A stretch of 64,000 bases of DNA, taken from an uncultured Bacteroidia bacterium. Its GTDB lineage: Bacteria; Bacteroidota; Bacteroidia; Bacteroidales; Prolixibacteraceae. Position 1 is the first letter of the stretch, and the number at the start of each line of letters is the position of its first letter. Positions 44,603-61,590 of the stretch are shown here, one piece after another. Under the pieces are notes generated by a model. It made no database searches, had not been told where the DNA came from, and worked only from the letters and a program-made list of their open reading frames with translations. The stretch covers positions 62,001-126,000 of the forward strand of contig CAIVMQ010000001.1 of the NCBI GenBank assembly GCA_903907075.1, written 5' to 3'. A program made the translations under genes and the position numbers.

Positions 44603-45532
44603 ATGAGATATCTCTTTTTTCTCTTCACCCTCCTATACCTGCAAACAAACGCACAAAAGCAAACCTATCTTTTCTCCTATTTTACAGATAATGGACAGGA
44701 TGGACTCCATCTTGCTTCAAGTAAAGACGGACTAAAATGGGAAACCTTAAAAGGGGGTAAATCATTCCTTACTCCGACAGCGGGAGATGATAAGCTCATG
44801 CGAGATCCATGCATTATCTTTGGTGCTGATGGTCTCTTTCACATGGTCTGGACCTGCAGCTGGAAAGAGCACCAGATCGGCTATGCCTACTCAAAAGATC
44901 TTATAAACTGGTCGCAGCAACAGACACTACCAGTGATGGCTCACGAGGCTGAGGCAAAAAACTGCTGGGCACCTGAATTAGTCTATGATGCAGCAAATAA
45001 AAATTATATTATCTATTGGGCCACTACGATTCCCGGTCGTCACTCCCAGGTAGCTACTTCTGAAACTGAGAAGGATTTTAATCATCGCATCTATTGCACA
45101 ACGACATCCGATTTTAAAACTTTTAGCCCTACTAAATTATTCTTTAATCCAGAGTTTAGCGTTATTGATGCCACAATTTTATCCAAAGATGGTACGAGCT
45201 ATATGTTTCTGAAAAATGAAAATTCAAACCCACCCGAAAAAAATATACGAATAACAAAAGCTCAGTCGGTTGCCGGCCCCTATCCTACAAAAGTTTCGGA
45301 ACCAATAACAGGAAAATATTGGGCAGAAGGACCTACTGCACTTCAAATTGGTAAATATGTCTATGTTTATTTTGATCAATATACCGAAGATAAATATGGA
45401 GCAATACGTTCAAAAGATATGATTGACTGGGAAGATGTATCTGATAAAATATCTTTTCCAAAAGGTTTACGCCACGGCACCGCTTTTAAAGTATCCCGGA
45501 AAATATCTAACCAACTTAACCAAATCAAATGA
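44603..45532 (+). CDS. Secreted GH43-like five-bladed propeller hydrolase
   Basis: A 309-residue protein with a signal peptide (MRYLFFLFTLLYLQTNAQ). Features of the GH43/GH32-type five-bladed propeller are LASSKDGLKWE, LMRDPCIIFGADGLFHMVWTCSW with the conserved R-D-P, YSKDLINW, NCWAPELVYDAANKNYIIYWA and WAEGPTALQIGKYVYVYFDQY, where the E of AEGP is the usual acid. The general-base Asp is not in its usual N-terminal place (SYFTDNGQDG), so activity needs care. GH43 members remove arabinose, xylose or galactose. The stop codon overlaps the ATG of the GH78 gene (ATGA), so the two are translationally coupled. It opens the second enzyme run. Confidence 0.8.
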   Translation: MRYLFFLFTLLYLQTNAQKQTYLFSYFTDNGQDGLHLASSKDGLKWETLKGGKSFLTPTAGDDKLMRDPCIIFGADGLFHMVWTCSWKEHQIGYAYSKDLINWSQQQTLPVMAHEAEAKNCWAPELVYDAANKNYIIYWATTIPGRHSQVATSETEKDFNHRIYCTTTSDFKTFSPTKLFFNPEFSVIDATILSKDGTSYMFLKNENSNPPEKNIRITKAQSVAGPYPTKVSEPITGKYWAEGPTALQIGKYVYVYFDQYTEDKYGAIRSKDMIDWEDVSDKISFPKGLRHGTAFKVSRKISNQLNQIK

Positions 45533-48316: not shown

Positions 48317-49546
48317 ATGGATAAAAACACAAATATCACAAAATCAGATCGCAGAAAATTCATTGGAAATGCAGGGATGGGCATTGCAGCACTTGCTGTT
48401 GTACCAAATTTTGGGCTTGCAAATCAACAAACTAAATCATCAAAAATCAGAATTGGCATTGTTGGTGGCCGCTTTGGTGCAGGATTTCAGTTTCATGAAC
48501 ATCCTGACTGTATTGTAGAAGCAGTGAGTGATTTGCGAACAGATCGTCGCCAGACGCTAATGAAAACCTACAAGTGCTCCAAAAGTTATGAGTCACTCGA
48601 GAAGCTAATCCTCGATCCAAAGATTGATGCAGTTTTTATCGCTACTCCTGCCCCTGATCATGTGCGCCATGCGGTAATGACCCTTAAAGCAGGCAAACAT
48701 GTATTATCGGCAGTTCCCGCGGCAATGACTATTGACGAATGCTATCTTTTACGAGATACGGTAAAGAGTACCGGACTTACCTATATGATGGCAGAGACCA
48801 GTTATTATCGACAAAATACGATATCGGCACGTAAATTTTATCAGCAAGGTCAATTTGGAGAGATGTTTAGTGCGGCAGCTGAATATAATCATCCTGGATT
48901 AGATGCACTTTGGTTTGAGGATGGGAAAGCTACATGGCGCCAAGGTCTGCCACCACTGCTTTACCCCACCCATTGTAGCGCGTTTCTCCTTTCTGTAACA
49001 GGCGAAAGATTAACCAATGTTAGTGGTCTGGGTTGGGGAGATCAAAGTCCGTTACTCAAAAATAACCCCTATAACAACCCATTCTGGAATGAAACGGCAT
49101 TTTTCAAGACAAACAAAGGAAAGCCTTTCAGAGTAGAGGTGAACTGGAAAGGGGCTTTACGAAATAGCGAGCGTGCAGAGTGGAGAGGTGATAAGATGTC
49201 CTTCTTCTCTGCTTTAGAAGATGGGAAGGAACACACTATTGTACGTATTGCAGAAGATACAGGGAAGGATGATGCTGGTTTTCAACATAAAGCAAATATT
49301 ACTGAGACTTACAAACAACCTTTATGGTGGCAGAGTGACCTATTACCTGAACCGTTAAGACATAACTCCGGTCACGACGGATCACATTCCTTTATTACGC
49401 ATGAGTTTATTGATGCACTAATCCATAATCGTCAACCTACCGTTAATGTCTATGAAGCCATTGCCTATACCGCTCCTGGTATTATAGCCCATCAGTCGGC
49501 GCTTAAAGATGGAGAGTATATGGGAATTCCAAATTTTGATAACTGA
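48317..49546 (+). CDS. Tat-exported Gfo/Idh/MocA oxidoreductase lacking the EKP motif
   Basis: A 409-residue protein with a Tat signal (SDRRKFIGNAGMGIAALAVVPNFGLA, arginines 12-13). The Rossmann domain starts KIRIGIVGGRFGAGFQF and contains VFIATPAPDHVRHAVMTLKAGKHV. The catalytic EKP motif of the family is replaced by A132-V133-P134 in HVLSAVPAAM, so the usual proton-relay lysine is missing. Family members use bound NAD(P) to oxidise or rearrange sugars, and GH109 and related enzymes cleave glycosides through this chemistry. It lies between GH78 and SGNH genes and may act on a periplasmic sugar intermediate. Fold and export are clear; catalysis is uncertain because of the missing lysine. Confidence 0.85.
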   Translation: MDKNTNITKSDRRKFIGNAGMGIAALAVVPNFGLANQQTKSSKIRIGIVGGRFGAGFQFHEHPDCIVEAVSDLRTDRRQTLMKTYKCSKSYESLEKLILDPKIDAVFIATPAPDHVRHAVMTLKAGKHVLSAVPAAMTIDECYLLRDTVKSTGLTYMMAETSYYRQNTISARKFYQQGQFGEMFSAAAEYNHPGLDALWFEDGKATWRQGLPPLLYPTHCSAFLLSVTGERLTNVSGLGWGDQSPLLKNNPYNNPFWNETAFFKTNKGKPFRVEVNWKGALRNSERAEWRGDKMSFFSALEDGKEHTIVRIAEDTGKDDAGFQHKANITETYKQPLWWQSDLLPEPLRHNSGHDGSHSFITHEFIDALIHNRQPTVNVYEAIAYTAPGIIAHQSALKDGEYMGIPNFDN

Positions 49547-49639
49547 TTTTAAAATTGCAAATTGCAATCCGTTAGCTAAATGTGATATTTTAAATTAATG
49601 AGATCCTAAATCAATACTAATTTCATCAACGATTAAACC

Positions 49640-50452
49640 ATGAGAAATTCACGCAGAGACTTTATTAAAACAGCAGCTTTAACAGCTTCAGGTGCTGCAC
49701 TTATTCCTACTCTAGCCATTGGTTCAGCAAAAAAGAAACCTGCTGCAGGGAAACATCCAATAAACCTCAAAGAAAATTCAATTATACTTTTTCAAGGCGA
49801 TTCAATTACTGACGCTGGACGGGATAGAAAAAATTCATCCCCGAATAATACAAATGCTCTTGGCCAAGGTTACGCTCTATTTGCAACGGGTCATCTGCTC
49901 GAAAAATTTGCTGAGAAAAAACTGAGTATCTATAATCGTGGCGTAAGCGGAAATAAAGTATATCAGCTTCGTGAGCGTTGGGACGAAGATTGTATTTCAC
50001 TAAAACCAGATGTTTTAAGCATTCTTGTCGGGGTAAACGATTACTGGCATACCCTTGACGGCGGATACAAAGGAACCTTAGAGAAATTTCTTGCCGATTA
50101 CAGAGAGCTGCTCAACTATACCAAGCAAAAGCTTCCTAATGTGCAATTAATTATCTGTGAGCCATATACACTCAAAGGAGGAGGAGCTATAAAACCGGAA
50201 CAATGGTATCCGATGTTTGATGCCTATCGCAGTGGAGCGAAACAGTTGGCTGAGGAATTCAAAGCCATTTATGTCCCTTTTCAAGCTGTTTATGATAAAA
50301 ATTTAAAACGGGCTTCTGAACACTACTGGGCCTCAGATGGTGTGCACCCTGATCTTCCCGGTGCCATGTTGATGGCCAGTGCCTGGCTTAAAGAAACCGG
50401 ACTGAAGAAAAAGAAGGATAAAAAGAAAGAAAAAGAGGACAAACAGGGGTGA
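49640..50452 (+). CDS. Tat-exported SGNH/GDSL esterase
   Basis: A 270-residue protein with a twin-arginine signal (MRNSRRDFIKTAALTASGAALIPTLA). All SGNH blocks are present: block I LFQGDSITDAGRD with the serine nucleophile, block II GVSGNKV with glycine, block III ILVGVNDYW with the Asn, and block V WASDGVHPDLPGAMLMA with Asp and His. The closest characterised relatives are rhamnogalacturonan and other sugar acetylesterases. The C-terminus is a lysine-rich tail (KKKDKKKEKEDK). Its last bases overlap the GTG start of the following GH78 gene (GTGA), indicating translational coupling. The enzyme probably deacetylates the glycan attacked by GH78. Confidence 0.9.
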   Translation: MRNSRRDFIKTAALTASGAALIPTLAIGSAKKKPAAGKHPINLKENSIILFQGDSITDAGRDRKNSSPNNTNALGQGYALFATGHLLEKFAEKKLSIYNRGVSGNKVYQLRERWDEDCISLKPDVLSILVGVNDYWHTLDGGYKGTLEKFLADYRELLNYTKQKLPNVQLIICEPYTLKGGGAIKPEQWYPMFDAYRSGAKQLAEEFKAIYVPFQAVYDKNLKRASEHYWASDGVHPDLPGAMLMASAWLKETGLKKKKDKKKEKEDKQG

Positions 50453-52866
50453 GATACAGCAGGTTAATTTTTGTTTTTCTGATCTGCTTGTCCACCGCAC
50501 TGACAAGTATTGGCGCCCAAATATTTAAACCACACTTGGCATTAAACGAATTAAAAGGGGCATCGTGGATTGGTGACAATAAACTACAACCTGCATCAGA
50601 TTCACTGATGTATGGTGATGATCCGGCACCTCTGTTTCGAAAAGCATTCAAGGTCAAGAAAAGCGTGAAATCAGCTAGGCTTTTTATTACTGCTGCAGGA
50701 TATTATAGTGCCTCTGTAAATGGGGAGAAGATAGGCCGTAATTTTCTTGACCCGGCGTGGACAAGTTACGCAAAACGTATCTATTATTCACAATACGATA
50801 TTACCTCTCAACTAAAAACGGGAGAAAATTGCCTGGGTGTTTCTCTTGGTAACGGATTCTATAACCCACTCCCATTAAAAATGTGGGGGACCTATAACCT
50901 GCGAAAATTGCTTACTGTTGGCCGTCCTAAGTTTATCGCAAAGTTACAAATCACCTATCAAGATGGCACTACCGAGATCTTTAACACAGATAAGAGCTGG
51001 AAATATGCCTATGGTCCAATAATCCGAAATAGTGTCTATATTGGAGAAAAATATGATGCGCGCCTGGAGATAAAAGATTGGAATAAGCCTAAATTCAATG
51101 ACTTAAGATGGTCCAACGTACTAGTTGACACTGGGCCTGGTGGTGAATTACAGAAATCATTTTTCCCTGCAATACAACAGGTTGACATCCAAAAAAGTAT
51201 CGCCATTAAATTTATTTGTGACAATACGTATCTGATAGATATGGGTGTTAATTTCACCGGACTTTATAAGGTAAGATTGCATGGAATAAAAGGAGACAAA
51301 ATCACCTTCCGGTTTGGTGAGCGTAAGTATGATGATGGCGAATTAAATCCAATGACCCAAACTTGCGGACAAATTAAAAGTACTGGACAAGGGGGCCCCG
51401 GAGCACCAGAGATAGCATGGCAAACTGATGAATATACATTTGGAGAAGAGACATCGGTCTGGTATACCCCGGAATTCACTTTTCATATTTTTCGGTATAT
51501 GGAGATATCCGGTCTGACCAAAGCTCCTGAACCGGAAGATATTCAGGGACTGGTTTTACATACCAACGTAAGAGAGAATGGTACATTTTCGACATCTTCC
51601 GAGTTACTCAATAAGATTCAAGTTATTACAAAGCGAACTTTCGTGAATAACCTTATGAGCGTTCAATCAGATTGCCCGGGGAGAGAACGCTTTGGTTATG
51701 GAGGAGACCTTAATGCCACCAGCGAATCGTATATCTGTAATTACGATATGCAAGACTTTTACCGCAAGACGATTTATGATTGGAAAGATGCAACACTCGA
51801 TTCTGTATTTATCGATATTGCACCATTTATCATGAAATATTGTGGTATAAGTTGGGAATCAGCAGTTGTTACAACTCAAAATAACCTCTTAACCTACTAT
51901 AACGATACCTCTATTGTACGTGAAATGTATTCCTATGATTTAAAATGGATGGAAAAAGTAGCACGATTACACCCCGAAGGGATAGTTAATAAAGGTTTGG
52001 GAGATCATGAATCAATGATCCCAGTGACAGTAGAATTAATCGGAACTACCCACTACCTTAAATGTGCTGAGATTATGAAAAATTTCGCCATTCTCATGAA
52101 TGACAAAGTAAACTTTGAGAAATTTTCTACATTGCAGAAATATCTATCCTCGATTTTAGTAACCAAATTCTGGAAACAGCAAGTTCCAAATCCAATAAAC
52201 AGACAAACACTTTATGCCACGTTGCTTTACTACAACCTAATCCCGAAATCAGAAAAACAAGCAGCCGCAGATTCGTTGTTAGTGGCGGTAAAAAATGGCG
52301 TTAACGGCCATTTTACTACCGGTATTTTTGGGACTAAATATATTCTTGAAGCGCTATCTCAAGCAGGATATGCAACTAAAGTTTATGAAATTGTCAACAG
52401 TCGTGAATATCCCGGATGGGGTTTTATGATCGACAGAGGTGCTACAACACTTTGGGAAACCTGGAAAGAGAGCGATAATACCTTTTCCAATTGTCACCCG
52501 ATGTTTGGAACTATCTCAGAATGGTTTTACCGTTGGATGGGGGGCATTAGGGGAATTCCAGAAAATCCAGGATACAAAAAATTTCTAATAGCTCCATTTA
52601 TTCCCAATGACTTAACCCATGTTAACTGCACCTATAATTCACCCCGCGGATTAATAACGTCAAGTTGGTTAAAGAAAAGTGATGGCTCTTTTGTATTTGA
52701 CTTCAAGGTACCTTTAGGATCAGAAGGGATAATTAAATTGCCATTTAAAAACTTTAAACGAATTATTAAAACAACGTTTACAGAGATGACTCAAAGTATT
52801 TCAAATATGACCTCAACAGATTTCACACTTAATGGTGGAAGCTATCAAGTTGTCGTGATCCCCTAA
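50449..52866 (+). CDS. Secreted GH78-family alpha-L-rhamnosidase, GTG start
   Basis: An 805-residue enzyme beginning with GTG at 50449, whose TGA overlap with the SGNH stop decides the start; the signal MRYSRLIFVFLICLSTALTSIGAQ follows at once. It has the Bac_rhamnosid_N block (ARLFITAAGYYSASVNGEKIGRNFLDPAWTSY) and a six-helical-hairpin barrel with VQSDCPGRERFGYGGDLNAT, where D420 takes the position of the GH78 general acid. The C-terminal blocks GWGFMIDRGATTLWETWKESD and HPMFGTISEWFYRWMGGI match GH78. It lacks the N-terminal Ig-like domain of the 45529 enzyme. The two GH78 copies probably cleave different rhamnosyl linkages. It is the last gene of the second enzyme run. Confidence 0.93.
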   Translation: MRYSRLIFVFLICLSTALTSIGAQIFKPHLALNELKGASWIGDNKLQPASDSLMYGDDPAPLFRKAFKVKKSVKSARLFITAAGYYSASVNGEKIGRNFLDPAWTSYAKRIYYSQYDITSQLKTGENCLGVSLGNGFYNPLPLKMWGTYNLRKLLTVGRPKFIAKLQITYQDGTTEIFNTDKSWKYAYGPIIRNSVYIGEKYDARLEIKDWNKPKFNDLRWSNVLVDTGPGGELQKSFFPAIQQVDIQKSIAIKFICDNTYLIDMGVNFTGLYKVRLHGIKGDKITFRFGERKYDDGELNPMTQTCGQIKSTGQGGPGAPEIAWQTDEYTFGEETSVWYTPEFTFHIFRYMEISGLTKAPEPEDIQGLVLHTNVRENGTFSTSSELLNKIQVITKRTFVNNLMSVQSDCPGRERFGYGGDLNATSESYICNYDMQDFYRKTIYDWKDATLDSVFIDIAPFIMKYCGISWESAVVTTQNNLLTYYNDTSIVREMYSYDLKWMEKVARLHPEGIVNKGLGDHESMIPVTVELIGTTHYLKCAEIMKNFAILMNDKVNFEKFSTLQKYLSSILVTKFWKQQVPNPINRQTLYATLLYYNLIPKSEKQAAADSLLVAVKNGVNGHFTTGIFGTKYILEALSQAGYATKVYEIVNSREYPGWGFMIDRGATTLWETWKESDNTFSNCHPMFGTISEWFYRWMGGIRGIPENPGYKKFLIAPFIPNDLTHVNCTYNSPRGLITSSWLKKSDGSFVFDFKVPLGSEGIIKLPFKNFKRIIKTTFTEMTQSISNMTSTDFTLNGGSYQVVVIP

Positions 52867-53015: not shown

Positions 53016-53053
53016 GTGTTGAATTTTGCAACACGTGTATAGATTCAATACAC
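53016..53053 (+). promoter_or_regulatory. Two abutting GTGT-N11-ACAC palindromes, candidate NtrC-type enhancer
   Basis: GTGTTG-N7-CAACAC (53016-53034) is followed without a gap by GTGTAT-N7-ATACAC (53035-53053). Both are 19 bp long and share GTGT-N11-ACAC, so they look like two copies of one dimer site with centres 19 bp apart. They lie about 200 and 180 bases upstream of the transcription start expected from the sigma-54 element at 53197, the normal place for an NtrC-family activator. Confidence 0.65.
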
Positions 53054-53095
53054 AAGATACAATACCTTATAAACCAATAAGATAAACCAGCACCA

Positions 53096-53130
53096 CATAA
53101 TAAGTGATGAATAATTCATCACTTATTATG
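53096..53130. terminator. Perfect AT-rich hairpin, terminator or regulatory
   Basis: Arms 53096-53111 and 53115-53130 are exact reverse complements (16 bp) with loop TAA. It lies 229 bp after the GH78 stop codon and between the palindromes and the -24/-12 element. It lacks a T-run, so it may be a late terminator of the enzyme run or another protein-binding site. The rest of the 379-bp gap 52867-53245 is described in the neighbouring entries. Confidence 0.45.
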
Positions 53131-53196
53131 TATAGAATGTCAACACACAGAATCGTATCTTACTAAACTACTGATTCTTAGCTCCGAAATTTTTAT

Positions 53197-53213
53197 CTGG
53201 CATTAAATTTGGA
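53197..53213 (+). promoter_or_regulatory. Sigma-54 (-24/-12) promoter of the electron-transfer operon
   Basis: CTGGCATTAAATTTGGA matches the consensus YTGGCACGRNNNTTGCW at all invariant positions except the -12 C, which is G. The spacing from the -24 GG to the -12 G is the required 12 bases. The start would be near 53224, with a 22-base leader containing AAAAGGG before ATG 53246. An NtrC-type activator with a GAFTGA loop is encoded in the same locus. Confidence 0.65.
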
Positions 53214-53245
53214 TATCCTGAATTATCACTTAAAAGGGAAAAGCC

Positions 53246-54943
53246 ATGAAAATCAGGACCATTTTAATCATTCTAATTTTACTGTTTAGCGGTATTAGCG
53301 TAATAAGCAAAGAACCGGCAATAGCAAAAGAGCAATCCCAAACGAGTACCATAAAGCTCTTCACTTCACCCGATTTAGTTCCATTGACAAAGCAATGGAT
53401 CACACAGTACAAAAAACTAAATCCCCAAGTAAGAATCGAGTTAAAGCAAGCTGAAGGGATTGATCTTACGGTACAACTCAAAGAGAAGTCATCTTTAGGA
53501 ATCCTCTCTGAGGAGCTACTCTCCACAATCAAAACAAAGGAAATTTGGAATATGGCGGTTGGTCGTGATGTGATTGTACCGATCATGAATCAATGTAATC
53601 CATTTTCAACAGAGCTAAGTGAAAAAGGGATAACCAAAGATAGGATACTGCGATTGGTAATCAGTAGTGAAAAGCAAAAGTGGGAAGTATTAACAGGAAA
53701 TACACAACCAATTACAAATATATTAGTTAATCATTATTATTTAAATGATAAATTAATACAACAAGGGCTTGAAAACTATACTGGGCTCAAACAGATACAG
53801 ATCGCCGGAACTCAAGTATCAGGAGTAGCAGAGTTAGTCGATGCCATACAGAAGGATCCCAACGGCATCGGATTTTGTCGTTTAATATCGATAGCCAACC
53901 AAGAATCACAAACTCTACCGGAATCGATAAAATTGATTCCAATCGATAAAAATGGGAATGGTAAGATTGATTATTCTGAAGCCATTTACACCAATTTACC
54001 TGAGTTTATGCGAGGAGTTTGGATCGGTAAATATCCGTTGGCATTAAGTCGAAAGATTTATACCGTCGCGATAGATAAGCCTGAAAACGAAGCTGAACAA
54101 TCCTTTTTAAAATGGATCCTCACCGATGGACAGCAATACCTTGCCTTCAATGGTTTTAATAACCTGGTTATTCCAGAAAGGCAAGCACAACTGGATAAAA
54201 TTAATGAACCCTTCAACTATACCACAACAATCCCTGAGAGAAGCCCCATCTTATTCATTAAATTTCTTATTCTTCTTGTCGCGGGCTTAATGGTTATTAT
54301 TCTGGAACCCGTGGTGGCATGGATTAGGGTGAAACAAACTATTCAGAAGCCTCAGCCTGTTAACCTCATGAATATTTTTAATCAAACGGCTACAGAAATA
54401 CCCAAAGGTCTCTATTTTGACAAGACCCATACCTGGGCATTTATGAAAAAAGATGGAGAGGTCAAACTAGGAATCGATGATTTTTTGCAACATGTAACAG
54501 GACCGATAACCCGGGTATCCCTATTAAATACTGGAGATCGGATACAAAAAGGGGGTCGATTGGTTACGATCATCCAAAAAGGGAAACAACTCACGATCTA
54601 CTCCCCTCTTACAGGAACAATTAAACAACACAACAAGAATCTTGAAATACATTCATCCTTATTAAATAGCGCACCTTTTACAGAAGGTTGGATCTATGCC
54701 ATTGAACCAACAAATTGGTCACTCGAGATTCAGTTTATGGATATGGCCGAAAAATACAAAAACTGGTTAAAAACAGAGTATTCAAGACTCAAAGATTTCT
54801 TTGCCAATGCAGTAAGAATTCATGCACCGGCATTTGTGATGGTTTTGCAAGACGGTGGAGTATTGAGAGATGGGATCCTTTCCGATCTTGGTCCTGAAGT
54901 ATGGGAAGATTTTCAACTAAAATTTATTGACAAATCGGTATAA
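53246..54943 (+). CDS. Membrane-anchored PstS-like domain fused to a GcvH-like domain
   Basis: A 565-residue two-domain protein. After a signal or anchor (residues 1-22) comes a periplasmic type-2 solute-binding domain resembling PstS (about 37-325), with an EF-hand-type loop DKNGNGKIDYSE at residues 234-245 that is common in Bacteroidota PstS relatives. A transmembrane segment (FIKFLILLVAGLMVIILEPVVAW, about 338-360) leads to a GcvH-like barrel (about 385-480: KGLYFDKTHTWAFMKKDGEVKLGIDDFLQHVTGPI). The lipoyl-lysine position is G446 (QKGKQLTIYSP), so it is probably not lipoylated. With one TM after an N-terminal signal, the GcvH-like part would be cytoplasmic. It is the first gene of the sigma-54 operon. 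The domain calls are good; the function is unknown. Confidence 0.78.
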   Translation: MKIRTILIILILLFSGISVISKEPAIAKEQSQTSTIKLFTSPDLVPLTKQWITQYKKLNPQVRIELKQAEGIDLTVQLKEKSSLGILSEELLSTIKTKEIWNMAVGRDVIVPIMNQCNPFSTELSEKGITKDRILRLVISSEKQKWEVLTGNTQPITNILVNHYYLNDKLIQQGLENYTGLKQIQIAGTQVSGVAELVDAIQKDPNGIGFCRLISIANQESQTLPESIKLIPIDKNGNGKIDYSEAIYTNLPEFMRGVWIGKYPLALSRKIYTVAIDKPENEAEQSFLKWILTDGQQYLAFNGFNNLVIPERQAQLDKINEPFNYTTTIPERSPILFIKFLILLVAGLMVIILEPVVAWIRVKQTIQKPQPVNLMNIFNQTATEIPKGLYFDKTHTWAFMKKDGEVKLGIDDFLQHVTGPITRVSLLNTGDRIQKGGRLVTIIQKGKQLTIYSPLTGTIKQHNKNLEIHSSLLNSAPFTEGWIYAIEPTNWSLEIQFMDMAEKYKNWLKTEYSRLKDFFANAVRIHAPAFVMVLQDGGVLRDGILSDLGPEVWEDFQLKFIDKSV

Positions 54944-54993
54944 AAACATTAAAAAGCTCTAAATCTATCGGTTAACCTTTCAAAATATCCGTC

Positions 54994-55860
54994 ATGGGAC
55001 TACAACGAAGAAGCTTTTTAAAGCTGCTGGGTGTTACGGGAATAACACTTGCAATTGGAGAAAATATGGTGGCCGCAACAGTTCCTGAGAATGATCCCGA
55101 GTTTAATGGGATACTCTTTGATGCAACACGTTGCAAAGGTTGTCGAGGGTGCGAATTTGATTGTGCAGAGGCACATAACCTTCCAGAGCCCCCAAAGAAT
55201 AAAGATATTGCGGCGGTTCGCAAAACGGACGAAACCTGCAATACGGTGGTCAACACCTATAAGACAGAAAAGGGTGAGTTATTTATTAAACGACAATGTA
55301 TGCACTGCAATGAACCGGCGTGCGCCGCAGCATGCCTAACAAAAGCGATGCGTAAGAGTAAAACCGGTCCCGTGACCTGGGATGGTGATAAATGTATGGG
55401 ATGTCGTTATTGCATGGTTTCATGCCCTTTCGACAGTCCTAAGTTTGAATATCACAGTGCAAATCCGAAGATTCAGAAATGTGACCTATGTGCAGAAAGG
55501 ATGAAAACGGAAGATAGCCCCGCCTGTGCCTACAACTGTCCAAACGAAGCGTTGCTCTATGGAAAGCGGCGCGATCTGATCAAAGAGGCACGCAGAAGAA
55601 TTTATGAAAAACCAGATGTCTATATCGACCATATCTATGGTGAACATGAGGCAGGCGGCACAAGTTGGCTCTATCTCTCCCCGGTACCATTTGAGCAGCT
55701 CGGAATGAACACTACACTGCAACAATCATCTTATCCTGAATTAACTAAAGGATTTCTCTATAGTGTCCCTTCGGTATTTGTTTTAGTGCCGACCTTATTA
55801 CTCGGAATTCACCAGGCTACAAAAAATAATCACCTTAATGAAGATAAAGATGACAAATAG
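54994..55860 (+). CDS. Tat-exported 4x[4Fe-4S] ferredoxin subunit (HybA-like)
   Basis: A 288-residue electron-transfer protein with a Tat signal (LQRRSFLKLLGVTGITLAIG). Sixteen cysteines in four groups can hold four [4Fe-4S] clusters: CKGCRGCEFDC, CMHCNEPACAAAC, CMGCRYCMVSC, and CDLC with CAYNC. A C-terminal hydrophobic segment (SVPSVFVLVPTLLLGI, about 254-269) anchors it in the membrane. This is the architecture of HybA, which passes electrons between a periplasmic enzyme and an NrfD/HybB quinone protein, and the next gene encodes such a partner with a 23-bp overlap. No hydrogenase, molybdopterin enzyme or cytochrome gene lies next to it, so its redox partner is unknown. The family is secure. 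Confidence 0.93.
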   Translation: MGLQRRSFLKLLGVTGITLAIGENMVAATVPENDPEFNGILFDATRCKGCRGCEFDCAEAHNLPEPPKNKDIAAVRKTDETCNTVVNTYKTEKGELFIKRQCMHCNEPACAAACLTKAMRKSKTGPVTWDGDKCMGCRYCMVSCPFDSPKFEYHSANPKIQKCDLCAERMKTEDSPACAYNCPNEALLYGKRRDLIKEARRRIYEKPDVYIDHIYGEHEAGGTSWLYLSPVPFEQLGMNTTLQQSSYPELTKGFLYSVPSVFVLVPTLLLGIHQATKNNHLNEDKDDK

Positions 55861-57091
55861 TACAAAGCCACTATTGGCTCTTCCGCTGGAGCAGTCAACC
55901 TGGAAATTCCTGATTAGTGAGATGAAACCTAAAGGAAAATTCCTTACCCCTTTTAACCTGATCTCGATACCAATCATGGTTATAGGATTAGTGTTGATTA
56001 TTATCCGATTTTGGAAAGGGATCGGAGCCATTACCAATCTGACACAAGATACACCATGGGGATTATGGATCGGATTCGACGTAGTTACCGGAGTGGCCTT
56101 TGCCGGTGGAGCTTATGTACTAACCTTTATGGTTTACGTTCTGAATTTAAAAGAGTACCATTCTATTGTGCGGGTCACGGTATTAAATGGCTTTCTTGCC
56201 TACTTGTTTTATGCAGGAGCGTTACTGCTTGACCTTGGGAGGCCTTGGCATGTGATTAATCCTGTTATAGGAAACAGCTTTGGAACTAGCTCTGTACTGT
56301 TTCTGGTGGCATGGCATTTTCTATTGTATATGCTCGCCGAGCTTATCGAATTTTCACCCGCAATAGCAGAATGGTTAGGAGCCCGAAGAGCACATAAAAT
56401 TCTTTCATCGATGACAATAGCTGCCGTAATCTTCGGAATAACACTATCAATCTTACATCAGTCGGGATTAGGAGCCCTATTTTTGATGGCAAAAGGTAAA
56501 ATTCATCCACTCTGGTACTCTGAATTTATTCCGGTTATGTTCATGATATCCAGCATTTTTGCAGGGTTGTCGATGGTAATTCTTGAAGGGTCAATCAGTC
56601 ACAAGGTATTTTCTAACCAAATCAGCAAAAAAAACCACGAGGCTCACCATGGAATCATCCATGGGTTATCAAAAATCTGTGCCGCCACTATGTTTGCCTA
56701 TCTCTTTCTTCAGGTACTTGTATTTATTCATGAACAACATTGGGCACTTTTGAACACACCAATGGGATACTGGTATCTGCTAGAGATGATTGGATTTGTG
56801 TTAATTCCCATGGTGCTCTTCGTTGTGAGCTACAGGAAATTTAATAGCACCCTAACAAAGGTGGCGGCCATACTAACGATGCTGGGTGTAATACTAAATA
56901 GGCTTAACGTCACTGTAATAGGTTTTAAATGGGAGATGGCAATACGATATATCCCCTCATGGATGGAATTTAGTGTAACACTGGCAGTAATATTTACTGA
57001 AATATGGATATTCCGATGGGTTATCAACCGGATGCCTGTATTACGTGACTCCCCATCCTGGGCAAGTGAAACAACTAAAATTAACCCGTAA
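55838..57091 (+). CDS. NrfD/PsrC/HybB-type membrane quinone oxidoreductase subunit
   Basis: A 417-residue inner-membrane protein with ten hydrophobic segments. Segment pairs include LWIGFDVVTGVAFAGGAYVLTFMVYVL, SIVRVTVLNGFLAYLFYAGALLLDL and ILSSMTIAAVIFGITLSILHQSGLGALFLM; the HQSGLGALF motif matches HybB, where it lies near the quinol site. It exchanges electrons between the quinone pool and the HybA-like ferredoxin encoded just upstream. ATG 55838 overlaps that gene by 23 bp; ATG 55850 is an alternative start four codons later. A short hairpin follows at 57090. The family call is secure; the direction of electron flow is unknown. Confidence 0.93.
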   Translation: MKIKMTNSTKPLLALPLEQSTWKFLISEMKPKGKFLTPFNLISIPIMVIGLVLIIIRFWKGIGAITNLTQDTPWGLWIGFDVVTGVAFAGGAYVLTFMVYVLNLKEYHSIVRVTVLNGFLAYLFYAGALLLDLGRPWHVINPVIGNSFGTSSVLFLVAWHFLLYMLAELIEFSPAIAEWLGARRAHKILSSMTIAAVIFGITLSILHQSGLGALFLMAKGKIHPLWYSEFIPVMFMISSIFAGLSMVILEGSISHKVFSNQISKKNHEAHHGIIHGLSKICAATMFAYLFLQVLVFIHEQHWALLNTPMGYWYLLEMIGFVLIPMVLFVVSYRKFNSTLTKVAAILTMLGVILNRLNVTVIGFKWEMAIRYIPSWMEFSVTLAVIFTEIWIFRWVINRMPVLRDSPSWASETTKINP

Positions 57092-57109
57092 CTACTCCTT
57101 TGAGTAGTT
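57090..57109 (+). other. Small intergenic hairpin
   Basis: AACTACTC-CTTT-GAGTAGTT is a perfect 8-bp stem overlapping the NrfD stop codon and 16 bases before the ATG of the GcvH-like gene. No T-run follows, so it may stabilise an mRNA end or tune translation of the next gene. Confidence 0.45.
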
Positions 57110-57125
57110 GCACAAAAACAGACAA

Positions 57126-57848
57126 ATGGAAGGATTTAGTTATTCGGATATTTTTGCAACAAAGGGAATTGAATACCTGGTAGTTATCACTTTCCTTGTA
57201 CTTCTGATTCCGTTTTGGCGTATTTTGAATAAACCGATTGAGTTAGTACGGAAGTTCAGAATGCCACTTGGAAAACTAACGTTTAAGGAGTTAGAAATTC
57301 CGCAGGGGTTATATTATGGTCCTAACCACACCTGGCTGCACCTCGAGAAGAGTGGAGTTGCCAAAGTTGGATTAGACGATCTGCTGTTACATCTTACGGG
57401 TAGGGTAAGTTGCAGTTTACTTAAACAGAGTGGTGAAAAAATCACCAAAGGAGAAACAATTGCATTTATTTATCAAGAGGATAAAAAGCTACAAATACTT
57501 TCACCGGTAACAGGCATAATAGCACAAACAAACTCAACACAGTTTCAAAATCCAACATGGATCAACGAAGACCCCTATGGAAATGGGTGGCTCTATAAAA
57601 TTAAACCTGACAACTGGATATTAGATTCGCAAAAATGCTATTTTGCCAACGATGCGATCGTATGGGCTGGCAAAGAGCTCAGTAAAATAAAAGATTTCCT
57701 CGCTGAATCACAGAAAAAATATTCCCATGAATCGTCATTGGTAATCTTACAAGATGGAGGTGAACTATCTGATTATACCTTAGCTTCCTTATCAAAACAA
57801 ATATGGAACGATTTTGAAACAAAATTTATGATGTTTCCAAAACCATAA
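57126..57848 (+). CDS. Membrane-anchored GcvH-like protein without the lipoyl lysine
   Basis: A 240-residue protein starting at ATG 57126; a TTG six codons upstream lies in the hairpin and is not preferred. One N-terminal transmembrane helix (YLVVITFLVLLIPFWRIL) is followed by a GcvH-like barrel (about 60-140): GLYYGPNHTWLHLEKSGVAKVGLDDLLLHLTGRVSCSLL and QILSPVTGIIAQTN. The position of the lipoyl lysine is D119 (EDKKLQILSP). The C-terminal region (LVILQDGGELSDYTLASLSKQIWNDFETKF) repeats a segment of the first operon gene (VMVLQDGGVLRDGILSDLGPEVWEDFQLKF), so the two share two domains. It probably forms part of the same membrane complex. Function unknown. Confidence 0.78.
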   Translation: MEGFSYSDIFATKGIEYLVVITFLVLLIPFWRILNKPIELVRKFRMPLGKLTFKELEIPQGLYYGPNHTWLHLEKSGVAKVGLDDLLLHLTGRVSCSLLKQSGEKITKGETIAFIYQEDKKLQILSPVTGIIAQTNSTQFQNPTWINEDPYGNGWLYKIKPDNWILDSQKCYFANDAIVWAGKELSKIKDFLAESQKKYSHESSLVILQDGGELSDYTLASLSKQIWNDFETKFMMFPKP

Positions 57849-57922
57849 TCGATTAAAAGACTATATGATAACGCTTTATTGCTGCGGTAAAAATTTATTG
57901 CACTATAATATTAATTAAATTT

Positions 57923-57953
57923 AAAAACTGTTGCTTAAACAACGGTTTTTTTT
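57923..57953 (+). terminator. Rho-independent terminator after the electron-transfer operon
   Basis: AAAAACTGTTG (57923-57933) pairs with CAACGGTTTTT (57940-57950) through 11 pairs, one of them G-T, around a 6-base loop, and is followed by T's. It lies 75 bases after the GcvH-like stop codon and separates that operon from the sensor kinase. Confidence 0.82.
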
Positions 57954-57998
57954 CGTAATTTGCAGAGTAATAGTACTCTCTACCAACTAGAGAATCAG

Positions 57999-59666
57999 AT
58001 GTTTTTGAGAAAAAAACATACCACCACTAAGGAAAATGCAATTCTGAGGAATTACGTTAAATTCAGGACCTCCATCTACGGCCGGGTCGTTTTAATTATC
58101 ACCTATCTTTCAATTTTTCTTTTCGTGTCCTTTACACTAATCTTTAGATCTGTGAACGAACAGTATCTAAATACACTTATTCGACAAAGTGGAAATAACA
58201 TAGGATCAATTGTTGAAGGTGCATTATATCATTCAATGCTTGAGAATGATAAAAGTTCATTGCGCAATACTTTAGACATCATAAACACCCTTCCCGGAAT
58301 CGATGAAGTGAACATGTACGACAGCAACGAAGAGCTGGTCTACTCATCTTTTGCGTTAGACAATGATCATAAACACAGCGATCCCGATTGTAAAAGTTGT
58401 CATCCTCACATAAAAGAGATGTTCTCACAAAAGGAGAAATCGTACAAAATAATCAATGTCAATAGCGATTGTGAGATGAATGTAAATGACAATGGGAGTC
58501 GCCATCTGTTAATTAAATCACCTATTTTAAATGAGAAGTCCTGTTCGGTCAGTTCATGTCATGCTCATAACCAGAGTGAAGTGGTACTAGGCTCTTTGGT
58601 TATAAAAATACCGCTTGAGGCTCAAGATGCAGCAATTAAAAAATCGTCGATTGAATTCTTTCTGCTCGCCATTTTTGCAACTGCCCTCTTCGTTATGGTA
58701 CTTTTAATCTTTACCCGAAAAAAGATTAAAGAACCGCTTAATGCATTAATTAAGGCGAGCATAGCTGTATCAAACGGGGACAAAAGCACGCGTGTAGAGA
58801 TTCAACCCCATCAGCTTGATGATATGAGAATGGTTTCTGAGGCTTTTAACGATATGCTGGACAACTTACATTCTGCGACACTAGAGTTAGAGAATTGGTC
58901 GCAACAGCTCGAATACAAGGTTCAAAAAAAATCTGAGGAGTTGGGTGCTGCACAGCATGAGTTAATTCATGTGGAGAGGCTGGCATCGCTAGGTAAACTC
59001 TCTTCGTCTGTTGCTCATGAAATTAATAATCCGTTGTCAGGAATATTAATATATACCAAGCTATTATACAAGCAGGTAAGCAATCCAGAAGTATACGCCT
59101 CCAAGCGAGAGTCGATGCTTAAGCATTTAAAATTAATTGAGAATGAGACTAAGCGGTGTGGAGATATCGTGAAGGGGCTGCTCGATTTTTCAAGAAAGGA
59201 CCAGGATAATTTTGAGCCGAAACATCTTCATGAGACCTTAAAGGAGACTTATGAATTGATGAGCCATCCGATAAAAATAGCCAATATCGCCTTTAGTACT
59301 CAATTTTCAGCTGCATCAGATCTTATTTATTGCAATCCCAATCAGATTAAACAAGCTTGTGTAGCCTTGTTAGTAAACGCTTCAGAAGCGATAATTGAAA
59401 ACGGTGAGATCCTAATTAAAACAAGCAATCCGGACGATGAGCACATAATAGTTGAGATCATCGATAACGGTGTTGGAATTAATCCTGTTGATTTACCCCA
59501 TATCTTCGAACCATTCTTTTCAACGAAGTCAAATGTTAGTGGAACTGGTTTAGGACTAGCTATAGTTCATGGAATTATACAAAATCACAAAGGTAAGACT
59601 GAGGTTAAGTCAGAACCTGGTAATGGAACTACACTGACTATAATCTTACCATTAATTACAAGTTAA
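57999..59666 (+). CDS. Sensor histidine kinase with periplasmic c-type haem motifs
   Basis: A 555-residue kinase starting at ATG 57999 (an in-frame TTG at 57960 is less likely). TM1 lies at about 28-50 and TM2 at about 216-236; between them is a periplasmic sensor with C131-K-S-C134-H135 (CxxCH) and C182-x4-C187-H188 (CX4CH), both typical of covalent haem attachment. A HAMP region, a coiled coil and a HisKA domain follow with phospho-acceptor H340 in SVAHEINNPLSG. The HATPase domain has N-box VNASEAI, DNGVGI and GTGLGLAIVHGI. It phosphorylates the regulator encoded 10 bp downstream. The signal may be redox state or a gas or ligand at the haem. Kinase call is secure; haem binding is inferred. 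Confidence 0.93.
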   Translation: MFLRKKHTTTKENAILRNYVKFRTSIYGRVVLIITYLSIFLFVSFTLIFRSVNEQYLNTLIRQSGNNIGSIVEGALYHSMLENDKSSLRNTLDIINTLPGIDEVNMYDSNEELVYSSFALDNDHKHSDPDCKSCHPHIKEMFSQKEKSYKIINVNSDCEMNVNDNGSRHLLIKSPILNEKSCSVSSCHAHNQSEVVLGSLVIKIPLEAQDAAIKKSSIEFFLLAIFATALFVMVLLIFTRKKIKEPLNALIKASIAVSNGDKSTRVEIQPHQLDDMRMVSEAFNDMLDNLHSATLELENWSQQLEYKVQKKSEELGAAQHELIHVERLASLGKLSSSVAHEINNPLSGILIYTKLLYKQVSNPEVYASKRESMLKHLKLIENETKRCGDIVKGLLDFSRKDQDNFEPKHLHETLKETYELMSHPIKIANIAFSTQFSAASDLIYCNPNQIKQACVALLVNASEAIIENGEILIKTSNPDDEHIIVEIIDNGVGINPVDLPHIFEPFFSTKSNVSGTGLGLAIVHGIIQNHKGKTEVKSEPGNGTTLTIILPLITS

Positions 59667-59676
59667 GGATAGAATC

Positions 59677-61017
59677 ATGGCAAAAAAAATTTCAATCCTA
59701 ATTGTTGATGATGAGGAGTCTGTAAGAGATTCCCTCTACAACTGGTTTATCGAAGATGGTTATCGGGTGGCGTGTGCTGAAGATGCCCGTAAGGCATTTA
59801 TGCTACTTGAAAATGATCTATTTGACATTATTCTGGCAGATATTAAAATGCCGGGGATGGATGGTCTGGAGATGCTACGAAGGATCAAGGCAATCAAACC
59901 AGAAGCCATAGTTATTATTATGACGGCATTTGCAACTGTAGACACAGCGGTAAAGGCCCTTAAAGACGGCGCATATGACTATGTCACCAAACCATTCGAT
60001 CCCGATGATTTAACACATCTGATAAGAAATGCAACCAGAGAAATCTCCCTTGTAGACGAAAATGAGAACCTTAAAAAAAAGGTGATAACCTTAGAAAATG
60101 TGCAGGACATTATCGGGACAAGCGAAGCAATGAAGGATATGCTACGCGAAGTTGAAAGTGTAGCACAGACAAATTCGTCTGTAATCATAACGGGGGAAAG
60201 CGGAACAGGCAAGGAGCTCGTAGCCCGGGCAATACATACTAACTCGCCTCGAAGATTCTTCCCTTTTGTGAGTGTTCATTGCGGAGCGTTAACAGAGAGC
60301 CTACTGGAGAGTGAATTATTTGGCCACGAAAAAGGAGCATTTACCGGGGCGATGTATCACCGCAAAGGGAGATTCGAAATGGCCGATAGCGGATCTATAT
60401 TTCTCGACGAGATAGCAACAATATCACCAAAGATGCAGGTGGAACTACTAAGGGTTTTGGAATCAAAAACCTTTATTCGTGTTGGGGGAAACAAGGAGAT
60501 CAATTCAGATTTCAGGGTGATCTGCGCAACGAATAAGGATCTTAAAATAATGGTAGAACAAGGTACCTTCAGGGAAGATCTTTATTACCGTTTGAATGTA
60601 GTAACAATTCATATCCCACCACTGCGTGAACGAATTGCAGATATACCATTGCTAGTTGACTATTTCATCAAAAAATACTGTACTTCAATGAATAAGCCCC
60701 CTGCCTTAATTGATGCTACAGCCCTAAAGCGACTTCAGGAATTCAACTATCCCGGGAATATCCGTGAACTTGAGAATATGATCGAGAGAGCCATTGTCGT
60801 TGGTGATGGCCATAGAATTGCGCTTAAAGACCTCCCACTTGAAAAAACAATCGTAAATAATTCAACCGAGAGTCTCGATGATTTCGAACGAATCTTTATC
60901 CAACAGATCCTCCAAAAATATAGCTGGAATATCTCACGAACAGCAAAAGCACTAAAAGTTGACCGTGTGACCCTATACCACAAAATCAAAAAATACGACT
61001 TAAGACCAGTTGAATAA
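59677..61017 (+). CDS. NtrC-family sigma-54-dependent response regulator
   Basis: A 446-residue activator with three domains. The receiver (1-120) has D11-D12-like acids, phospho-acceptor D55 in ILADIKMPGMDG and K105 in VTKPFD. The AAA+ domain (about 140-375) has Walker A GESGTGKE, the sigma-54 contact loop GAFTGA at 220-225, and Walker B GSIFLDEI. The C-terminal Fis-type helix-turn-helix is NISRTAKALKVDRVTLYHKIKKY. It forms a two-gene signalling pair with the haem-type kinase and most likely binds the GTGT-N11-ACAC palindromes at 53016-53053 to activate the operon. Only the family and domains are seen directly; the target is inferred. Confidence 0.95.
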   Translation: MAKKISILIVDDEESVRDSLYNWFIEDGYRVACAEDARKAFMLLENDLFDIILADIKMPGMDGLEMLRRIKAIKPEAIVIIMTAFATVDTAVKALKDGAYDYVTKPFDPDDLTHLIRNATREISLVDENENLKKKVITLENVQDIIGTSEAMKDMLREVESVAQTNSSVIITGESGTGKELVARAIHTNSPRRFFPFVSVHCGALTESLLESELFGHEKGAFTGAMYHRKGRFEMADSGSIFLDEIATISPKMQVELLRVLESKTFIRVGGNKEINSDFRVICATNKDLKIMVEQGTFREDLYYRLNVVTIHIPPLRERIADIPLLVDYFIKKYCTSMNKPPALIDATALKRLQEFNYPGNIRELENMIERAIVVGDGHRIALKDLPLEKTIVNNSTESLDDFERIFIQQILQKYSWNISRTAKALKVDRVTLYHKIKKYDLRPVE

Positions 61018-61029
61018 TAAGCTTGAATA

Positions 61030-61590
61030 ATGAGTCTGCCAAATATAACCATACTCTCTTTTGGCATTTTCGAACAGGAGCTGCTTAAAAATTTAGCATT
61101 TGCAATCCAAGCTGAATTTGGCTATCCAGTAAATATTCAGGAGGCCCATCTTGATATCAGTGAATTTTATGACCCAGCACGAAGACAATATAACGGCAAT
61201 GCACTCTTAAAAATCATTGACACCTCAACTATTTCCGATTCGATAAAGATTGTGGGACTGTTCCAAGTTGACCTATTCATCCCTATTCTTACTTTTATTT
61301 TTGGCCAGGCCTTTTTAGATGGCAGGTCTGCCATAGCATCTGTTTACCGTCTCTGTAATGAACGATATGGAATGAATCAAAACAATCCTCTCTTAATGGA
61401 ACGGATAGAAAAAGAGTTAATTCATGAGCTTGGCCATACCTTTGGATTACTCCATTGTGATAATCCGATATGCGTTATGAGATCATCGACTTATTTAGAG
61501 GATGTCGATCAAAAAAGAAAAAATCTATGTCAAAGCTGTCAAACTAAACTAGCAATCAAAGGTGTAAAACCAATGAAAACAGACCAATAA
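61030..61590 (+). CDS. amzA: Archaemetzincin-type zinc metalloprotease
   Basis: A 186-residue protein with the complete archaemetzincin zinc signature: HELGHTFGLLHC (H132, E133, H136, H142, C143), then C148-x-M150, and C167-x-x-C170, which bind a catalytic zinc and a structural zinc. Length fits the family (about 180). There is no signal peptide, so it is cytoplasmic. The family is found in archaea, some bacteria and vertebrates, and its physiological substrate in bacteria is not known. The ATG follows the regulator stop by 12 bp, so it is transcribed with the kinase-regulator pair and may act in the same response. Confidence 0.93.
   Translation: MSLPNITILSFGIFEQELLKNLAFAIQAEFGYPVNIQEAHLDISEFYDPARRQYNGNALLKIIDTSTISDSIKIVGLFQVDLFIPILTFIFGQAFLDGRSAIASVYRLCNERYGMNQNNPLLMERIEKELIHELGHTFGLLHCDNPICVMRSSTYLEDVDQKRKNLCQSCQTKLAIKGVKPMKTDQ

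Follow-up and report, generated by a model that had tools for sequence, protein, structure and literature searches.

A conserved locus in Bacteroidota and other phyla combines a candidate dihaem sensor kinase, an archaemetzincin and H-protein-like proteins, often with a ferredoxin–NrfD pair

Gene content of the locus

We analysed a 64,000-nucleotide stretch (the window) of contig CAIVMQ010000001.1 from an uncultured Bacteroidia bacterium of the Prolixibacteraceae (GCA_903907075.1), in which seven genes, here called U, B, C, D, K, R and M, occupy 53246–61590 on the + strand (Table 1). The list of open reading frames (ORFs) confirms all seven in the order given by a first-pass annotation, which was made from the DNA alone. 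Families were assigned with Pfam and NCBIfam profiles and curated equivalog cut-offs. The locus unites three parts that have lacked a clear role, now found in one conserved unit: H-protein-like (H-like) proteins apparently unable to carry lipoate in the known way, a bacterial archaemetzincin and an NrfD/ferredoxin pair with no catalytic partner. Papers under open licence in PubMed Central, a body of literature that leaves most subscription papers outside its scope, yielded no account of such a set of genes.

Table 1. Genes and predicted signals of the locus (window positions; TM, transmembrane segment)
Feature	Position	Strand	Description
17-bp palindrome TGATGAATAATTCATCA	53105..53121	+	putative enhancer-like site, 76 bp before the -24 element
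17-bp imperfect palindrome TGTATAGAATGTCAACA	53129..53145	+	putative enhancer-like site, 52 bp before the -24 element
sigma-54-like promoter TGGCAT-N5-TTG	53198..53211	+	48 bp before gene U
gene U	53246..54943	+	signal peptide, PstS-like periplasmic domain, TM at about residue 335, H-protein-like domain 389-510, QDGG C-terminus
gene B	54994..55860	+	HmcB/HybA-like ferredoxin, twin-arginine translocation (Tat)-type leader RRSFLK, C-terminal TM
gene C	55838..57091	+	HmcC/HybB-like NrfD membrane protein, 10 hydrophobic segments (hydropathy)
gene D	57108..57848	+	H-protein-like, TM-anchored, QDGG tail, Asp at the lipoyl-lysine position
terminator-like hairpin and T-run	57923..57950	+	between D and K (custom script)
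gene K	57960..59666	+	histidine kinase: periplasmic PAS-like sensor with CxxCH and CX4CH, HAMP, HisKA, HATPase
gene R	59677..61017	+	NtrC-type response regulator: receiver (REC), sigma-54 AAA+, Fis-type helix-turn-helix (HTH)
gene M	61030..61590	+	archaemetzincin, peptidase family M54; motifs HELGHTFGLLHC and CxxC intact

Conservation of the gene set

Genes U, B, C, K, R and M stand together in 24/40 regions around matches to C or to the H-like genes, many of the other regions being cut by contig ends, and also in many loci found through M54. The first-pass annotation had proposed a distinct system, and its genes do co-occur elsewhere. A neighbourhood by chance is rejected on these counts. Among close relatives, C is present in 16/41 genomes (the window's own and 40 relatives). 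Fourteen C-bearing regions of up to 20 kb were fetched and nine hold all six genes; of the remaining five, four are cut by contig ends (loci L048, L051, L052 and L054, with D split into two frames in L052) and L056 lacks R or M after K. Fifteen of the 26 more distant loci from the same phylum (L061–L086) carry the six genes with a short U that, judged by length, has no PstS-like domain; the other 11 include contig-end loci (L063, L066), U-B-C loci with no K-R-M in the stretch retrieved (L067, L069, L083, L086), sister or partial loci (L079, L080, L084, L085) and one with H-like genes in another context (L082).

A single-sequence scan of genome contigs with gene D gave no match, and an M54 alignment was used instead, of whose 334 confirmed loci the best 80 were kept. 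With M54 as bait, R lies directly upstream of M in 74 of the 80, a kinase, R and M follow one another in 69, and the kinase has a dihaem sensor in 67. Sixty-six of these loci have at least 4.5 kb of upstream sequence: an H-like gene stands within seven genes in 58 and C in 45, the in-order pattern is found in 39, and in 12 the H-like gene is accompanied by neither B nor C. Record titles for the 80 loci span about ten phyla (Bacteroidota, Ignavibacteria, Zixibacteria, KSB1, Gemmatimonadota, Latescibacterota, Neomarinimicrobiota, deltaproteobacteria/Syntrophaceae, Wallbacteria, Holophagales, Bacillota and one Alphaproteobacteria, plus untyped bacteria). Carriers are mostly metagenome-assembled; because they also include Draconibacterium orientale, which has the full U-B-C-D-K-R-M set, D. 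mangrovi, Mariniphaga sediminis and Maribellus sp. CM-23, the unit is open to experiment. Over the 44 loci in which B has 284 residues or more, pairwise distances correlate at 0.88–0.95 among K, R and M, at 0.85–0.87 between B or C and K or R, and at 0.68–0.75 between U and the others, with shared species history contributing to all values.

M scores 161.6 bits with the archaemetzincin model, above its cut-off of 145, and the extended zinc motif of M54 is invariant in 17/17 aligned sequences. The biological importance of archaemetzincins is described as barely known in PMC3427221; the gene here is set apart by its place beside a two-component pair. In another phylum sample, 49/118 genomes have an M54 match; among 30 short M54 loci from it, whose 1.5 kb flanks do not allow NrfD presence to be judged, R adjoins M in 17 (in one across an antisense ORF), and by our own count an H-like gene occurs in 13 and an ORF with 10–13 haem motifs in 4. 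In L236 and L241, two of the short loci, a separate M54 ORF was not called. The archaemetzincin gene lies beside the 10- to 13-haem ORF in L231, L233, L234 and L245.

These associations would also suit a role in assembly or quality control, in which M54, together with the H-like proteins, would serve the maturation or turnover of membrane, haem or Fe–S proteins under haem-redox two-component control. The recurrent R–M54 adjacency (in loci where M54 was the bait), the invariant zinc motif, the H-like genes of the short loci and a C-terminal tail common to the H-like proteins (below) are consistent with this; the substrate of M54 is not known, and we consider such a role quite unlikely.

H-protein-like proteins

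Both U and D match Pfam GCV_H (5.4e-20 and 5.8e-21). The structural model of U (mean pLDDT 81) combines a PstS-type fold (4jwo, E 3.6e-16) with an H-protein fold, the H-like domain superimposing on 1onl with TMt 0.93 and a root-mean-square deviation (rmsd) of 1.5 (Foldseek) at 22–30% identity to H-protein structures among the 50 matches listed. In sequence, the periplasmic domain reaches only 3.7e-5 with PBP_like_2, under the Pfam cut-off; it holds a conserved EF-hand-like loop (DKNGNGKIDYSE), with Pfam EF-hand at only E 0.059. By length, the PstS-like domain is confined to the long U of Bacteroidales-type loci, and it is absent from U in L110, L113 and L126 (for L113 by Pfam as well).

The lipoyl lysine is not conserved. 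Across 187 non-identical H-like sequences (receiver fusions excluded) its column holds K in 6 and G in 117, and the following column, with K in 111/187 and R in 27/187, offers no strict lysine. Our reading of the alignment sets an Asp of D against the lysine of the Thermus thermophilus H-protein (1onl), which we take to be the lipoylated one. The curated GcvH model gives 71 bits against a cut-off of 117. A D/E-G-G motif lies within the last 110 residues of 181/187 sequences. A role as carriers of lipoate, like that of the H-protein in glycine cleavage or of LbpA in sulfur oxidation, agrees with the fold of the U domain; set against the two columns, the idea is scarcely credible, and we reject lipoylation. 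LbpA itself is lipoylated, as PMC6067878 describes. Relative to LbpA and to the glycine cleavage H-protein, the window-type proteins share the fold and differ in the unconserved lipoyl lysine, in the additional D/E-G-G tail, and in that many are membrane-anchored or fused to receivers.

Sister loci encode fusions of H-like with receiver domains near B–C and a dihaem kinase, and in L077–L080 and L085 these fusions are also near a 13-haem cytochrome. Several non-Bacteroidales loci (L061, L068, L074, L077, L081, L140, L142, L162) encode an H-like protein with no transmembrane segment and a cysteine-rich N-terminus. A motif C-(I/V)-W-x7-(Y/F)-(K/Q)-L-C-x5-C-x2-C-x-(F/I/L)-D recurs at the N-termini of H-like proteins from L061, L068, L074, L077, L081, L142, L162 and L221; Pfam names no domain in this region for L142 and L221.

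Sensor kinase, regulator and promoter

The first-pass annotation had placed the locus under haem-sensor/NtrC control, an assignment supported here by the two candidate haem-attachment motifs of K and by a sigma-54-like promoter with palindromes ahead of U. Pfam recognizes HAMP, HisKA and HATPase in K. Its motifs, C144–H148 (CxxCH) and C195–H201 (CX4CH), would attach haem; among 100 aligned kinases, which were chosen by a profile containing these motifs and include duplicate contigs, the four cysteines and H148 are kept in 100/100 and H201 in 99/100 (one gap). The modelled sensor (mean pLDDT 83) retrieves PAS/Cache-type structures, a WalK model first (E 1.5e-5), followed among chemotaxis sensors by Geobacter GSU0935 (3b42; E 8.8e-5, TM-scores 0.34/0.50, rmsd 13.9) and GSU0582 (3b47; E 0.02, TM-scores 0.31/0.49), both of which carry haem c. 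Because these TM-scores are low, the likeness is to the general PAS-like periplasmic fold only, and K differs in setting its CxxCH and CX4CH sensor on a histidine kinase. Within the phylum of the window, 42/296 genomes encode a dihaem sensor of this kind, the case of G120 being marginal. L115 and L132 each hold a tandem pair of dihaem kinases within one locus.

R has the receiver, sigma-54 AAA+ and HTH_8 domains of an NtrC-type regulator, and its genome encodes rpoN as well as a cytochrome c assembly protein. PADLOC returned eight matches for R, all of them confined to its receiver, AAA+ and HTH parts; the three strongest, reaching 351 bits, are to RtcR-type sigma-54 proteins. The other six genes had no match, and we see nothing that points to a role in defence.

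Upstream of long U, the element TGGYAY-N5-TTG occurs in 31/45 regions (shuffled mean 0.38, maximum 3 in 200), and palindromes stand at gaps of 50–53, 74–78, 143–147 and 162–165 in 8, 11, 12 and 10 of the 45 regions (shuffled 0), figures that describe the strength of the footprint and are no independent test, because the motif was defined on the counted sequences and the loci are related. The window palindrome at 53129 is too imperfect to be among the 8/45 counted at gaps 50–53. The pattern TCAACA-N45..75-TGGYAY-N5-TTG has 83 matches across 25 genomes against 30 for its reverse; in the window's genome there are 2 against 0, one at the U operon and one elsewhere (C39). Between D and K, a custom script finds hairpins of the Table 1 type in 15/46 long-U loci, the window included, and a stock terminator scanner reported none at that position in the window; given the hairpin, the genes may form two transcription units.

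The ferredoxin–NrfD pair

B is a Fer4_11 protein whose closest equivalog is HmcB (334 bits, cut-off 420), then HybA (229, cut-off 263); C is an NrfD protein closest to HmcC (397, cut-off 550), then to the HybB cytochrome b model (249, cut-off 450), and reaches 73 bits of the 570 demanded by QrcD. The leader of B reads as Tat-type, Pfam TAT_signal giving only E 0.044, and a comparison with L061–L086 finds it Tat-type in Bacteroidales-type loci and replaced by a short N-terminus in most Ignavibacteria-type loci. A crude topology rule divides B into 56 with a long N-terminus (51 with a clear C-terminal transmembrane segment) and 21 without one (1 with such a segment); the rule misplaces at least L064 and L070, which have short N-termini, and the hydropathy cut may miss weak helices.

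The pair resembles the Hmc complex of Desulfovibrio (HmcA–F) in its Tat-type, tail-anchored HmcB-like ferredoxin followed by an HmcC-like NrfD protein. The locus differs in having no HmcA 16-haem cytochrome (nor any HmcA-type multihaem cytochrome among its seven genes), HmcD, HmcE or HmcF, and in adding the H-like proteins, K, R and M54; B and C also fall under the HmcB and HmcC cut-offs. HybA/HybB of [NiFe] hydrogenase-2 is the same type of pair, in the window with no hydrogenase gene. An ordinary Hmc- or hydrogenase-2-type module with neighbours assembled by chance would account for the best equivalogs of B and C; the scores below curated cut-offs, the missing HmcA, HmcD–F and hydrogenase genes, and neighbours conserved in kind and order across phyla make it very improbable.

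Tail-anchored ferredoxin/HybB-like pairs with periplasmic cytochromes are covered, together with the Hmc complex, in a section of PMC10924467. According to that section, the flanking genes of this module show no conserved pattern (a histidine kinase, a sigma-54 regulator and response regulators figure as unrelated flanks), a leaderless ferredoxin beside [FeFe] hydrogenase may hitchhike through Tat, and no GcvH-like protein or archaemetzincin is named. The locus in the window differs from the pairs described there in its conserved flanking genes and in having no cytochrome or hydrogenase gene. The main text of a survey of NrfD-like subunits (PMC8076601) contains neither 'glycine' nor 'kinase'.

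The first-pass annotation had seen an NrfD pair with no catalytic subunit, and none is encoded in the locus. The genome, 92% complete, has no match to the molybdopterin family PF00384 (matched in 11/14 control genomes), the NiFe large subunit PF00374 (5/14) or NrfA PF02335 (only 1/14), the three catalytic families searched; [FeFe] hydrogenase and multihaem cytochromes were not searched, and PF14589, matched in no control, is uninformative. Nor do homologous loci always lie beside a known catalytic subunit: clustering of 712 neighbour ORFs from 115 loci gave no recurrent catalytic neighbour, the largest cluster being kinase/receiver proteins (19 loci), the second the 13-haem cytochrome of a sister system (6 loci) and every other at most 5 loci. 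Ten representatives of neighbour families were named by Pfam (kinase/receiver, PQQ_2, GDSL, Gfo/Idh, glyoxalase, ECF sigma factor, symporter, multihaem cytochrome, phosphoesterase and thioredoxin-like), among them no hydrogenase, formate dehydrogenase or nitrite reductase.

Related loci pair B–C with a 13-haem or 8-haem cytochrome. Such partners, the HybA/HybB and HmcB/HmcC pair type, the presence of C within seven genes in 45 of the 66 M54 loci, a sigma-54 footprint that precedes U-B-C-D and loci with U-B-C and no K-R-M nearby (below) all speak for a quinone-coupled respiratory or energy-conserving complex whose redox partner is encoded elsewhere, with the H-like and PstS-like parts structural or ligand-sensing and K–R its regulator. 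The absence of a recurrent catalytic neighbour, the three unmatched families and the retention of U-K-R-M where B-C-D is missing argue the other way, and we regard this complex as a somewhat unlikely answer.

Loci without B, C and D

Eight Bacteroidales-type loci (L098, L100, L104, L113, L127, L128, L129 and L136) have U-K-R-M and lack B, C and D. Seven contain no N and L100 four, U of L100 starting at a contig end. L098 comes from a record titled Alphaproteobacteria, for which mis-binning or transfer is possible. Seven of these genomes (L100 left out) were searched with a profile of C, which has no match in 5 and only weak, partial ones in 2; metagenome assemblies may be incomplete, but D. 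mangrovi and M. sediminis are isolates. The stretches fetched for the deltaproteobacterial loci L142, L159 and L162 likewise contain a kinase, R, M and an H-like gene and show no gene for NrfD. Overall, C is missing from 11 of the 79 loci that combine a kinase, a regulator and an H-like gene (the eight and L161–L163). A kinase tree of the 79, made by a quick method and with some long branches, needs 11 changes in the presence of C, 10 of them forced by starred branches, and shows no clustering relative to shuffles.

Remnants are suggested in the gap between U and K, which in L100 resembles the end of D (tblastn, residues 214–241, E 0.19) and in L129 reads by eye as a D-like end. The tested motifs of K, R and M are kept in 8/8 loci, the exceptions being a receiver-motif variant in L127 and an ATP-lid variant in L129. 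Nonsynonymous divergence (dN) in four pairs without C is 0.093–0.125 for K and 0.060–0.077 for R, similar to the 0.092–0.111 and 0.049–0.089 of four pairs with C, with synonymous divergence (dS) largely saturated. From the sequences, B, C and D appear to be a dispensable, optional part of the module. The first-pass annotation had put the NrfD complex at the core, a placing that these eight loci, the three deltaproteobacterial loci and the receiver-fused H-like domains do not support. Loci that lack B, C and D allow the system to be compared in both states, with its electron-transfer arm and in its absence.

Proposed mechanism

We tentatively favour, with a little less than even confidence, a signalling module that senses redox state and regulates itself, carries a quinone-linked arm as an option and is not in the first place a respiratory enzyme. 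On the periplasmic side, the dihaem domain of K would change with redox state or ligand, and K would phosphorylate R; R would bind paired TGTTGA-N5-TCAACA-type palindromes and drive transcription of its own U(-B-C-D) operon from the sigma-54 promoter. The H-like subunits would act as non-lipoylated cytoplasmic adaptors tying membrane input to K/R and to the protease M with its presumed target, the D/E-G-G tail perhaps mediating their contacts. B and C would form the optional arm, coupling the quinone pool to the sensor or to an unknown partner. In favour of this module stand the kinase-R-M run of the M54 loci, the scattered loci without C and the upkeep of K, R and M motifs and of similar K and R dN values in them, the receiver-fused H-like domains, the PAS/Cache-type likeness of the sensor, the promoter and palindrome footprint, the presence of rpoN and of a cytochrome c assembly protein in the genome, and the distances of K, R and M, which show the highest correlations.

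A further reading, which we find doubtful, makes this an electron-wired two-component system: the NrfD/ferredoxin pair would link the quinone pool to the dihaem kinase, lipoyl-less H domains would relay the signal in the cytoplasm and the archaemetzincin would be the proteolytic output. If true, it would constitute a new kind of respiratory-state sensor and the first physiological context for bacterial archaemetzincins.

Several points weigh against the signalling module. No result here shows a passage of electrons between C and the haems that K would carry. In the many Bacteroidales- and Ignavibacteria-type loci that have B–C, a respiratory complex and its dedicated regulator would be just as good a fit. 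U-B-C occurs with no K-R-M in the fetched stretch in L067, L069, L083 and L086, each genome having a dihaem kinase elsewhere. The constancy of M54 in the 80 loci is built in because M54 was the bait, and the link to H-like genes is not universal because 8 of the 66 loci with enough upstream sequence have none within seven genes. The promoter and palindrome motif was picked by eye on the same 45 sequences, which share ancestry, and 14 of the 45 lack the promoter element (in L052, L055 and L091 our inspection suggests that the called start of U cuts it off). The pattern search established no R target beyond its own operon, and we claim no wider regulon. In two of the four pairs without C, dN of U is raised (0.48 and 0.38, against 0.23–0.32 in the other six pairs), a hint of relaxed constraint, and the losses of B-C-D could be recent, with K-R-M not yet decayed.

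Related loci and neighbouring genes

A sister system in L077 (12435–19655), L078, L079, L080 and L085 comprises HmcB, HmcC, a 13-haem cytochrome and a dihaem kinase, followed by fusions of a receiver to an H-like domain; in L077 and L078 it adjoins U-B-C-K-R-M in divergent orientation. A Zixibacteria record (L218, 3072–9766) has a dihaem kinase, a regulator, a receiver–H-protein fusion, a receiver protein, a ferredoxin and an NrfD protein in one run. Upstream of U in the window, two large proteins (45529–48291 and 50449–52866) read, from sequence, like alpha-L-rhamnosidases; GDSL-like and Gfo/Idh-like genes lie between them (48317–50452), together suggesting a sugar-use cluster, and likely relatives of these two genes are among the neighbour families named by Pfam.

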